DNA of 64,000 nt from positions 186,001-250,000 of the forward strand of contig NC_019977.1 of the NCBI RefSeq assembly GCF_000328665.1. The letters are read 5' to 3'. The first letter of the stretch is position 1. Every line of letters begins with the position of its first letter. The notes below the pieces were generated by a model. It was not told the DNA's origin and did no database searches. It saw nothing but the letters and a program-made list of their open reading frames with translations. Shown one piece after another: positions 48,156 through 51,475 of this stretch. This DNA comes from Methanomethylovorans hollandica DSM 15978. Lineage in GTDB: Archaea; Halobacteriota; Methanosarcinia; Methanosarcinales; Methanosarcinaceae. A program made the position numbers and the translations under genes.

Positions 48156-48213
48156 TATCATTATTAAAAAAATATAAATAGTTTCGAAAATAGTTCTCAT
48201 TGCGGTGATTTAA

Positions 48214-49161
48214 TTGGTTTCAATCTCAGATTCAAAGACTACTCATCCGTTCATTGAATTGCTAAGACCGGAAATTGCAGATATGGACCTCGCCTTACCA
48301 GCAGCAAGTGCATTGCTGGCTTCTTATCTTGCAACAGGTTCTCTACCCCCTATTTTCTCATTTGTTATTGCAGTAATAGGAGGGTATGCAGCCATTACAA
48401 GCTCATATGTGTATAATGATTGCTGTGATGTAGACATTGATTCTATAAACCTTCCAAATAGGCCTCTTCCATCCAGAGAACTCAGTAAGCAAAAGGCTCT
48501 GAAATACGCTTTATTTCTTGGATTGATAGCATCAGCAGCTGCATTGATCCTCAATCCTGAATCATTTGTTGTGCTTATTGTAGCAGTACTAATCATTAGT
48601 ATATATTCAAGTGTGGCCAAAAGGACCACTTTCTTAAGTTTCATTCCTGTAGGAATTGCTTATGGACTTGTACCCATTGGTGTATGGCTGGCATTTGATC
48701 CAGCAGGGGTACTTAAACAGCCCGACTACGGTGCCATTTTACCTCTTCCTGCCATTTTCCTGGGTCTCATGATGTGTTTCACTGATTGGGGATTTACGCT
48801 ATCTGGTGTGGCAAGGGATGTAGAAGGAGACCGTTCACGTGGTGCACCCACCCTTCCTGTAACATTTGGTGTGCCTGTAACATCCATATTCGTGTTTATC
48901 ATGTGGATCGTAGGGGTTTTTGCTTCCATTGCAATAGGCATCACTGCTCATCTTGGGCCAGTGTTTTTTATTGGTGCTATTCTTGCGGGTTTATGGATGT
49001 TGTCACAGTCTTTTGATTTCATCCAAAATCCAACTCCTCAAAGAGGTGGCCGCCTCTTCCTTCAGGGCTCACGTTACAGGGGCATCATGTTCGGGTCACT
49101 TATAGTTGATGTACTGCTACTGGTATTATCAACCACTTACGCTTCAATATTATGGTGGTAA
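48214..49161 (+). CDS. UbiA-family membrane prenyltransferase
   Basis: A 315-aa enzyme with 8-9 membrane helices. The two Asp-rich motifs that bind Mg-prenyl diphosphate are YNDCCDVDIDSINLPNRPLPS (about 67-87) and ARDVEGDRSRGAPTLPV (about 203-219). TTG 48214 is the start, five bases after GGTGA. The family includes archaeal digeranylgeranylglyceryl phosphate synthase and quinone or phenazine prenyltransferases; the substrate is not fixed. It is followed at once by a reductase-like flavoprotein and a radical SAM protein, so these likely act on one prenyl lipid. Confidence 0.88.
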   Translation: MVSISDSKTTHPFIELLRPEIADMDLALPAASALLASYLATGSLPPIFSFVIAVIGGYAAITSSYVYNDCCDVDIDSINLPNRPLPSRELSKQKALKYALFLGLIASAAALILNPESFVVLIVAVLIISIYSSVAKRTTFLSFIPVGIAYGLVPIGVWLAFDPAGVLKQPDYGAILPLPAIFLGLMMCFTDWGFTLSGVARDVEGDRSRGAPTLPVTFGVPVTSIFVFIMWIVGVFASIAIGITAHLGPVFFIGAILAGLWMLSQSFDFIQNPTPQRGGRLFLQGSRYRGIMFGSLIVDVLLLVLSTTYASILWW

Positions 49162-49166
49162 TTATT

Positions 49167-50324
49167 ATGGATGCAGATATTATAGTAATTGGTGCCTCTC
49201 CGGCAGGTCTCATGGCTGCTCGTAATGCTGCCTTAAAGGGCACAAATGTTATTCTGATCGACAGGAAAGAGGCAATCGGCAATCCCACTCATCCTGCAAA
49301 CACTTTCTTCAAAGGGATGTTCGACAAGACAGGTGAAACCGTTGACCAGAGCTATGTGATAAAGAATCTCAAAGGTGCACATATAGTGGCTCCTTCAGGT
49401 AGCGAGGTTGTTGTAGAAAGCCCGGCGTATTTCCTGGATCGCAGGAAGTTCGATGAATACTATGCACAGCAGGTGCTCAAAGCAGGTGTTGATATTCGCA
49501 CGGGAACAGAAGCTCTAAATGCCATCCGCAATGAAGGCATATTTTCCCTAAGTACAAATAAAGGAATGCTGAAGTCTAAGATCATCATAGTCTCAGATGG
49601 TATAAATTCCAGAATAGCAGGGCTCTTGGGTATGAAACCCATCAAATATCCTGGGGATATAGCATGGTCTATGGAAGCCGAGATAGAGGCTCCAGGTATT
49701 GGAGAACCTGACATGTTCGAATATTATGTAGGAAACCATGCCCCAGGGTGGAAATCAACATATTCACCTTGTGGCGGTGATCGCGCAACTTTGGGAGTGT
49801 ATGTGCGCAGGCATGGTAAGGATGTCTCATCTTTCTTTGATACGTGGGTGGAGCGTTTCAAGAAAATAAATGGCTTGGAAGAGCTATCCATTACCCATAG
49901 GTCAGTGGGGGGAGATCCTATAGCTGCCATTCCCGGAGATATAGTAGGTGAAGGAGTTATGATCACGGGAGGCTCTGCTGCCCAGTCAGGCATAGGATAT
50001 GGGATGCATGCTGGGCAGATGTGTGGTGATGTGGCAGCAGATGCCATTGCAAAGAATGATGTTTCTGCCAGGTTCCTGTCAGAGTACAGAAAACGCTGGA
50101 ACAAGGAGTACAGAAATGAGTATTATCTGGGTCGTATGGCACTTGAGACTCTGCGCAAGATGACAGACAAAGAAATAGATTCCATGATGCAGGTATTTGA
50201 GGGTGAGGATCTTTCTTTCATTCAAGGTGCCCCCTTAAATAAGGCAATACATGCAGCAATGTTCATGCTCAGGAAAAAGCCATCTTCATTGCTTGCCTAC
50301 AGGGCAGCATTGAGAAGGAAGTGA
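49167..50324 (+). CDS. geranylgeranyl reductase-like FAD protein
   Basis: A 385-aa flavoprotein of the p-hydroxybenzoate hydroxylase fold. FAD-binding IVIGASPAGLMAARNAALKG at residues 5-24, IVSDGINSRIAGLLG, and GVMITGGSAAQSGIGYGMHAG, the third FAD contact. It lacks the canonical YxWxFP of archaeal lipid GGRs, having GWKSTYSPCGG instead, so it is a divergent paralogue. ATG 49167 is six bases after the prenyltransferase stop. It likely reduces one or more double bonds of a prenyl chain. Confidence 0.82.
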   Translation: MDADIIVIGASPAGLMAARNAALKGTNVILIDRKEAIGNPTHPANTFFKGMFDKTGETVDQSYVIKNLKGAHIVAPSGSEVVVESPAYFLDRRKFDEYYAQQVLKAGVDIRTGTEALNAIRNEGIFSLSTNKGMLKSKIIIVSDGINSRIAGLLGMKPIKYPGDIAWSMEAEIEAPGIGEPDMFEYYVGNHAPGWKSTYSPCGGDRATLGVYVRRHGKDVSSFFDTWVERFKKINGLEELSITHRSVGGDPIAAIPGDIVGEGVMITGGSAAQSGIGYGMHAGQMCGDVAADAIAKNDVSARFLSEYRKRWNKEYRNEYYLGRMALETLRKMTDKEIDSMMQVFEGEDLSFIQGAPLNKAIHAAMFMLRKKPSSLLAYRAALRRK

Positions 50325-50332
50325 ACGTGGTT

Positions 50333-51475
50333 ATGAGTAAGTATTATTTTTACAGGAATCCCCTTTTCAAGGTCTATGCAACGGTCCAGAATGGTCTTGT
50401 TAAGATGGATACAGAAGGCCTAGTATCTCCTTTTTTCAGCCCGATGGTAAAAGGCCTCATGCAGATGTTCGATGGTACGAAACCTTCTTTAGTGGAGGCT
50501 GATAGGCTCATTTATTCCACGTGGATGCCTCCAATACCCAGCAAACCCTTTGATAGGCTGGTATCCAGCCAGATGGGTAACATGAGGGGTAAATATATAC
50601 CAGAGCAATTGACCATTTCCATTACGGAGGATTGTCCCAATAAATGCCTTCACTGTGCATTGCCTGATACAAAGAATCGTGCAAAGCTGGAGCCAAATGT
50701 TGTGAGGTCGATCATCGATCAGGCACAGGAGATAGGTACTACTTTAATTATATTTGACGGAGGAGAACCCTTACTTTATGTGGGTCTGGAAGAGCTGATA
50801 TCTCATGTGGACCAGGAGCGTGCTATTCCCGGTCTGTTCACTTCAGGTGTGGGTTTTACTGCGGAACGTGCACAAAGCCTCAAAGAGGCTGGCCTATACA
50901 CGCTTAGTGTGAGCCTGGACAGTCCACATGAAGAGGGTCATGACCTTATGCGTGGCCGTTCCGGTGTTTTCAGAGATGCCATGTCGGCAATACGCAATGG
51001 AGTAGAGGCTGGCCTGTTTGTGAATATCTATGTGGTCATCTCTCCGAGGAACATACATGAACTGGACGATTTCTATCAATTGGCTCGAGAAGCAGGTGTA
51101 CACGAGATATCCTTCTTTGAGATCGTTCCTACTGGTAGATGGATTGACCATACTGATGAAGTGCTATCTGCTGAAGACCGTAAAAAATTCGATGATTTTG
51201 TATCCTCTGCCTCTATGAGCGATGGTCCTAGGATATTTCCGATTCCTCAAGTAGTAAGGAAAATGGGTTGTTTTGCCGGGCGCAAATGGCTGCATATAAC
51301 CCCTGAAGGGAACATATGGCCCTGTTCCTGTCTGCCTTTAAGCTATGGGAATATACATAATGACAGCCTTAAATCAGTATGGAAAAAGATCACTAAAGAT
51401 CCCTCCTTCACGGGTGGTAAATGCCTGATGCGCAATTCCGAATTCAGACATATCCATCTAGGGCTAAATGACTAA
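50333..51475 (+). CDS. radical SAM / SPASM-type protein
   Basis: A 380-aa radical SAM enzyme: the cluster motif CPNKCLHCALP at about residue 102, SAM-binding FDGGEPLL, and SVSLDSP. C-terminal cysteines GCFAGRKWLHITPEGNIWPCSCLPLSYGNI form a SPASM-like auxiliary-cluster region. ATG 50333 is taken; GTG 50321, overlapping the reductase stop as GTGA, is possible. It is last in the three-gene unit, before a bidirectional terminator. Substrate unknown; context suggests modification of a prenyl or ring intermediate (inference). Confidence 0.85.
   Translation: MSKYYFYRNPLFKVYATVQNGLVKMDTEGLVSPFFSPMVKGLMQMFDGTKPSLVEADRLIYSTWMPPIPSKPFDRLVSSQMGNMRGKYIPEQLTISITEDCPNKCLHCALPDTKNRAKLEPNVVRSIIDQAQEIGTTLIIFDGGEPLLYVGLEELISHVDQERAIPGLFTSGVGFTAERAQSLKEAGLYTLSVSLDSPHEEGHDLMRGRSGVFRDAMSAIRNGVEAGLFVNIYVVISPRNIHELDDFYQLAREAGVHEISFFEIVPTGRWIDHTDEVLSAEDRKKFDDFVSSASMSDGPRIFPIPQVVRKMGCFAGRKWLHITPEGNIWPCSCLPLSYGNIHNDSLKSVWKKITKDPSFTGGKCLMRNSEFRHIHLGLND

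Follow-up and report, generated by a model that had tools for sequence, protein, structure and literature searches.

Three adjacent genes of Methanomethylovorans hollandica DSM 15978 very likely encode, judging from their sequences and genomic context, the tail-attaching enzyme, the tail-saturating enzyme and one of three radical S-adenosylmethionine (SAM) proteins of methanophenazine biosynthesis. These genes are located at positions 48214-51475 of a stretch of 64,000 nucleotides (hereafter the window; contig NC_019977.1, positions 186,001 to 250,000 of the forward strand), in a genome of 2,428,904 + 285,109 bases. Methanophenazine, the membrane electron carrier used by Methanosarcinaceae, the family of M. 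hollandica, has a C25 prenyl chain attached as an ether, with one of its isoprene units reduced, a structure that fits the joint action of a UbiA-type prenyltransferase and a prenyl reductase. An initial annotation of the window had already proposed a methanophenazine tail pathway for this trio. Three genomic observations support this proposal: the opposite distributions of the trio and of the menaquinone gene mqnC, the separation of the prenyltransferase from the digeranylgeranylglyceryl phosphate (DGGGP) synthases, and the pairing of a radical SAM paralog with GFPS, the geranylfarnesyl diphosphate (GFPP) synthase.

In papers published up to 2021, the biosynthesis of methanophenazine is described as undeciphered, except for the C25 diphosphate synthase (PMC6315138, PMC8546582). 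No paper naming the present genes was found in the open literature to 2026, subscription papers and preprints being outside the scope of this search.

Organization and conservation of the operon

The three open reading frames (ORFs) were found adjacent on the + strand, as initially annotated. The first two ORFs overlap by 10 bases and the last two by 4 bases. The operon and its putative signals are as follows.

48171..48180, + strand: TATA-like stretch (AATATAAATA), candidate operon promoter from reading of the sequence
48204..48208, + strand: GGTGA, candidate ribosome-binding site ahead of the UbiA gene, which starts with TTG, likewise from reading of the sequence
48214..49161, + strand: UbiA-family membrane prenyltransferase, 315 aa (PF01040, Asp-rich motifs); proposed to attach the C25 (geranylfarnesyl) tail to phenazine or a precursor
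49152..50324, + strand: divergent geranylgeranyl-reductase-like flavin adenine dinucleotide (FAD) protein, 390 aa (fold, own clade); proposed reductase of the first isoprene of the tail
50321..51475, + strand: radical SAM/SPASM-like protein (paralog A), 384 aa (PF04055, Cys pattern, nearest folds); proposed to act in ring formation or modification

The tgtA gene lies upstream of the UbiA gene, with a gap of 58 bases, and a convergent DUF7121 gene lies beyond the 3' end of the trio. Of 80 loci compared, 59 contain the complete trio as a unit, and this arrangement is therefore not due to chance.

The prenyltransferase and the reductase are distinct from core-lipid enzymes

The UbiA protein of the window belongs to the UbiA superfamily (PF01040, 148.1 bits for a cut-off of 34.2), and its Asp-rich motifs NDxxDxDxD (residues 68-76) and RDxxGDR (residues 201-207) are kept in 12 orthologs. 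As the best solved-structure match of this protein is a DGGGP synthase (6m31), and that of the flavoprotein (3oz2) is annotated as a digeranylgeranylglycerophospholipid reductase, the trio might make ordinary archaeal core lipids, with UbiA as the DGGGP synthase and the flavoprotein as the lipid-saturating geranylgeranyl reductase (GGR). However, the window UbiA reaches only 92.1 and 81.7 bits with the DGGGP synthase equivalog models NF009521 and NF009522 (cut-offs of 296 and 353, respectively), whereas a paralog encoded in the same genome (L001) passes with 370.5 bits for the cut-off of 296. Moreover, a branch with supports of 98/99 separates the DGGGP synthases from the family of the window UbiA, in a tree with few rows and long branches. 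The grouping with DGGGP synthases that would have spoken against the initial annotation was thus not observed. On the basis of model scores and phylogeny, the window UbiA is not the DGGGP synthase of M. hollandica, which is encoded elsewhere in the genome. The two enzymes share their superfamily and an archaeal origin, and DGGGP synthase also forms prenyl ethers, but it is a general lipid enzyme.

A functional parallel to the activity proposed here is Mpz10 of Streptomyces, a membrane-bound prenyltransferase of the UbiA family acting on 1,6-dihydroxyphenazine (PMC4044012), i.e. a UbiA-type membrane enzyme that prenylates a hydroxyphenazine, as suggested for the window UbiA. Mpz10 differs in that it belongs to bacterial secondary metabolism, uses 1,6-dihydroxyphenazine as acceptor and is clustered with its own phenazine genes, while methanophenazine needs an O-linked C25 chain.

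The flavoprotein had been initially annotated as divergent, and this was confirmed by its best NCBIfam match, the GG-red-SF model TIGR02032, for which it scores 112.7 bits (cut-off of 158.8). Its predicted structure (mean predicted local distance difference test score, pLDDT, of 87) displays the GGR fold, with template modelling (TM) scores of 0.84 to 3oz2 and about 0.8 to SaGGR (3atq/4op*). The protein would therefore be a member of the GGR-fold family, with predicted FAD binding. It shares this common FAD-protein fold with the archaeal geranylgeranyl reductases, but differs from them by the lack of the YxWxFP substrate motif and of the GDAA flavin motif, both absent from all 9 orthologs examined. 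The position of YxWxFP is occupied by PGWKSTYSP. In addition, the flavoprotein forms its own clade (100/100), apart from the four other GGR-family paralogs of the genome, all of which exceed the family cut-off and one of which adjoins the cofG/cofH genes. The changes in the two motifs suggest an altered active site, as expected for a new substrate.

The core-lipid explanation is thus contradicted by the DGGGP model scores, the UbiA tree, the separate clade of the reductase and the presence of lipid enzymes elsewhere in the genome. Furthermore, lipid genes are expected in all archaea, whereas the trio is limited to one class. We consider this explanation extremely improbable. The proposed methanophenazine pathway follows the same logic as UbiA/MqnP/MenA with MenJ, in which an aromatic head group receives a prenyl chain from a UbiA enzyme and one isoprene is saturated by a GGR-family protein. 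These systems differ from the trio by their quinone head group and by C-prenylation, and the trio-bearing genomes have no mqnC.

The distribution of the trio is opposite to that of mqnC

Within the class, the presence of the three families was compared across 150 genomes, of which 138 contain the radical SAM family and 12 lack it. UbiA and the ortholog-level reductase follow the same pattern, except for single gaps in draft genomes. The trio families occur in Methanosarcinaceae, in the anaerobic methanotrophic archaea ANME-2, in Methanotrichaceae and in lineages of the JdFR-19/B74_G9 type. The 12 genomes without the trio correspond to 11 genomes of a single family, most likely Methanoperedenaceae, and to the sole genome of another family. 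The mqnC gene was detected above its curated cut-off in exactly these 12 genomes and in none of the other 138. Sub-threshold matches to MqnC were found in the remaining genomes; in the source genome, the match adjoins a CofG-like radical SAM gene. We take these sub-threshold matches to be FO-synthase (CofH) proteins and not menaquinone genes.

This distribution fits the published data, since mqn genes but no methanophenazine have been reported in Methanoperedens enrichments, ANME-2a being devoid of mqn genes (PMC5244752), and since the Fpo complex of ANME-2a/b/c and ANME-3 resembles the methanophenazine type (PMC9012536). The phylogenetic profile against methanophenazine-containing taxa, suggested in the initial annotation as a check, is therefore in agreement with its proposal: the trio families are missing from exactly the 12 mqnC carriers, and no trio was found in archaea without methanophenazine. 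A search for PF03284 (PhzA/B) gave no match in the 150 genomes, and the control genomes were equally silent.

Three paralogous radical SAM proteins

Protein A of the trio scores above the cut-offs of both the radical SAM domain (PF04055, 80.7 bits) and the SPASM domain (PF13186, 31 bits). It carries a CX3CX2C motif at Cys 105/109/112 and auxiliary Cys at 317/335/337/368. The three former residues are invariant across A, its paralog B and the bacterial relatives, which places these proteins in the radical SAM superfamily. Four auxiliary Cys are present in A and three in B and in a further paralog, C, i.e. fewer than in a full two-cluster SPASM set, which suggests a reduced SPASM domain with one auxiliary cluster. 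The nearest folds of A are SkfB, BlsE, PqqE and MoaA. Like AhbD, NirJ2, PqqE, SkfB and BlsE, A pairs a CX3CX2C-bearing radical SAM domain with a domain for an auxiliary cluster. However, A remains far below the equivalog cut-offs of all these enzymes and of MoaA (at best, 123.5 bits vs. 500 for AhbD), and its family differs from these enzymes by having only 3-4 auxiliary Cys, three paralogs and a link to methanophenazine users.

B and C are encoded elsewhere in the genome and have the same distribution as A. Neither was found in the genomes tested from the two mqnC-bearing families, where the best match reaches 125 bits vs. about 250-650 elsewhere. In the tree, A, B and C each form one clade (100/100, 97/86 and 99/97, respectively) in which every lineage is represented, and A and B are sister clades (99/98). 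The triplication is therefore older than the diversification of the class. By sequence, C looks active in M. hollandica, ANME-2 and Methanothrix. In contrast, C of Methanosarcina acetivorans (L197:8747-9961) and of a Methanimicrococcus-like genome (G122; L203:9001-10227) has lost all radical SAM and auxiliary Cys, although its reading frame is full-length and intact in both. From these residues, C is predicted to be a maintained pseudoenzyme in Methanosarcina and G122, and the simplest idea would be a role as a structural partner in Methanosarcina.

Pairing of radical SAM paralog B with GFPP synthase

The C25 diphosphate is the product of GFPS of M. mazei (MM_0789), an enzyme that has been described as methanophenazine-specific (Ogawa 2010, cited from PMC3017947). 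The gene immediately upstream of that for B encodes a prenyl diphosphate synthase, and the M. acetivorans enzyme passes the methanogen GFPS model NF040627 (621 bits for a cut-off of 600). B adjoins GFPS in 20 out of 20 genomes in which both positions are listed, from Methanosarcina to Methanothrix, the two genes being separated by up to about 370 bases or overlapping, with exact gaps determined for six genomes. B also adjoins GFPS in UBA10536 (L208). The copy of the source genome scores 362.9 bits, i.e. below the NF040627 cut-off of 600; given its identical gene position and its best-matching family, it is probably an ortholog that falls outside this narrow cut-off. GFPS (MM_0789; NF040627) would thus belong to the same pathway as the trio, its gene adjoining B in every GFPS-bearing genome compared. 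It makes the C25 diphosphate only and is encoded outside the window. The link to GFPP synthesis runs via paralog B and not via the trio itself.

A locus numbered MA0606 would presumably fall near 0.7 Mb in the M. acetivorans genome. The only strong GFPS match in this genome (L189:8432-9319) lies at 5.066 Mb, and MA0606 is given as the homolog of MM0789 in PMC8546582.

In UBA10536, the trio is immediately followed by genes encoding a [NiFe] hydrogenase small subunit with a twin-arginine translocation (TAT) signal, a large subunit and a b-type cytochrome, which is the layout of Vht, the methanophenazine-reducing hydrogenase. No mqnC was found in UBA10536. This genome (L157, L208; DUGO01) is labelled Candidatus Methanoperedenaceae, yet it possesses the whole methanophenazine set and a Vht-type hydrogenase without mqnC. 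Probably, either this label is erroneous or the genome represents a methanogen-like sister lineage.

Other neighbours were also recorded. Genes of the shikimate pathway were found twice: those for 5-enolpyruvylshikimate-3-phosphate (EPSP) synthase and prephenate dehydrogenase near B in JdFR-19, and those for shikimate dehydrogenase and prephenate dehydrogenase near C in UBA10536. These two cases may be a weak hint that the ring derives from chorismate. A gene with a CcmE domain is located just upstream of GFPS/B in Methanosarcinaceae and directly upstream of B in ANME-2, with heme biosynthesis genes nearby in some genomes (L188:8378-8776, L189, L191, L195, L206, L207). Several otherwise intact genes of JdFR-19 contain an in-frame TAG (the reductase in L060, EPSP synthase at L192:7622-7624 and a radical SAM C2 in L202), as do genes of B74_G9. 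In both lineages, an amino acid, possibly pyrrolysine, is probably inserted at TAG. A cupin glucose-6-phosphate isomerase, whose gene flanks UbiA in Methanothrix and in one case lies close to the radical SAM gene of ANME-2, was rejected as a shared partner since it is a housekeeping protein. In ANME-2, genes for a PF02441 AfpA-like flavoprotein and a GTPase-like protein neighbour the radical SAM gene; both were also discarded, as neither was seen in another lineage.

The radical SAM proteins might nevertheless act elsewhere than in methanophenazine synthesis, e.g. by modifying a peptide, or a heme-like cofactor, on which the same respiratory chain depends, leaving only UbiA and the reductase in the pathway. 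The nearest characterized relatives of A include the heme and peptide enzymes AhbD, NirJ, PqqE and SkfB, and B of Methanosarcinaceae is also found near CcmE-like and heme biosynthesis genes. However, A shares one operon with UbiA and the reductase in Methanosarcinaceae, the gene for B accompanies that for GFPS, UbiA is also the partner of the bacterial relatives, and no cut-off of a heme or peptide model was reached. We therefore regard this explanation as rather unlikely, while giving it more weight than the other alternatives.

Relatives outside the class

We screened 393 genomes of the phylum with the UbiA profile. Matches were obtained in 81 of them, 80 belonging to the class and one being a 64%-complete metagenome-assembled genome (MAG), in which no ortholog-level match to the reductase or to the radical SAM protein was found. 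A named scan of 84,980 species was also performed with strict patterns. Among the 80 of its 103 matches that were retained, we found the class, the same 64%-complete MAG and three bacterial MAGs (one Cloacimonadota, one WOR-3 and one other bacterium). No Methylarchaeales, which have been predicted to make methanophenazine (PMC9478090), were present among these 80 of 103 strict-pattern matches.

In the three bacterial MAGs, a related radical SAM gene directly follows UbiA, with no adjacent reductase (L106:4674-9097, L112:3809-8232, L103:3788-6029). The Cloacimonadota and WOR-3 operons read ThiC-like / UbiA / radical SAM / second UbiA, and that of the other bacterial MAG UbiA / radical SAM. The bacterial radical SAM proteins branch outside the archaeal ones. 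Thus, the UbiA and radical SAM pair predates methanophenazine or extends beyond it, whereas the reductase-containing trio was found only in methanophenazine lineages. The operons of these three MAGs may represent a route to some prenylated redox compound. The ThiC-like protein, also encoded near UbiA in Methanothrix, was rejected as a ring-forming enzyme because it is present in the mqnC-bearing families and missing from several trio genomes.

The trio could also make a different, partly saturated prenylated redox lipid or cofactor that occurs by chance in the same lineages. The bacterial UbiA and radical SAM pairs, two of which are accompanied by a ThiC-like protein and a second UbiA, suggest that this chemistry also has other products. 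Conversely, the distribution of the trio matches the use of methanophenazine and is opposite to that of menaquinone, B adjoins GFPS, the enzyme that produces a precursor of methanophenazine, and the trio adjoins Vht-type hydrogenase genes in UBA10536. A different product appears improbable in view of these three observations.

Proposed pathway

We propose a methanophenazine set of about six genes, encoding GFPS, UbiA, the reductase and the radical SAM proteins A, B and C. GFPS, encoded elsewhere in the genome next to B, would make the C25 diphosphate. UbiA (48214-49161) would transfer the C25 chain, within the membrane, to the hydroxyl of 2-hydroxyphenazine or of a precursor, forming an ether. 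The flavoprotein (49152-50324) would saturate the first isoprene unit, before or after this transfer. A (50321-51475), together with B and C, would build or tailor the ring, C being a non-catalytic partner in Methanosarcina. The gene order, the family assignments, the distribution, the separation from the lipid enzymes and the link to GFPP synthase were observed, and the membership of these genes in the methanophenazine pathway is well supported; we infer the individual reactions, their order and, most of all, what the radical SAM proteins do, their reaction being the least certain element of the model.

Several observations weigh against this proposal. Despite the perfect match, the anticorrelation with mqnC has a modest weight, because the 12 genomes represent two families and the pattern may reflect only one or two evolutionary events; in addition, the names of these two families (Methanoperedenaceae, most likely, and an allied family) were deduced. 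The linkage of the trio is lost in Methanothrix and partly lost in ANME-2. No GFPS ortholog was found at E <= 1e-60 in the ANME-2 genomes (G052, G070, G113, G118, G125, G134, G141), nor was GFPS seen in the JdFR-19 type, and the tail synthase is therefore not part of the constant set. In these lineages, the tail of the carrier is probably made by another synthase, and perhaps has another length. Since C of M. acetivorans carries no cluster, no required radical SAM step can be assigned to C there. Finally, the bacterial operons suggest that the UbiA and radical SAM pair can serve another product.

More tentatively, and with somewhat less than even confidence, we suggest that archaea possess a phenazine route of their own, based on three radical SAM proteins that were duplicated before the diversification of the class. 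C would have decayed to a cluster-less partner in Methanosarcina, and some uncultured bacteria would employ the same UbiA and radical SAM chemistry to make a different prenylated redox compound.

In methanogens with cytochromes, e.g. Methanosarcina and Methanothrix, respiratory electrons are carried by methanophenazine, as is probably also the case in the ANME-2 methane oxidizers. With five to six genes named, the biosynthesis of this carrier can be put to the test in Methanosarcina, and the set provides a genomic marker for methanophenazine users. The set also predicts that in ANME-2, where no GFPP synthase ortholog was found, another enzyme makes the tail.

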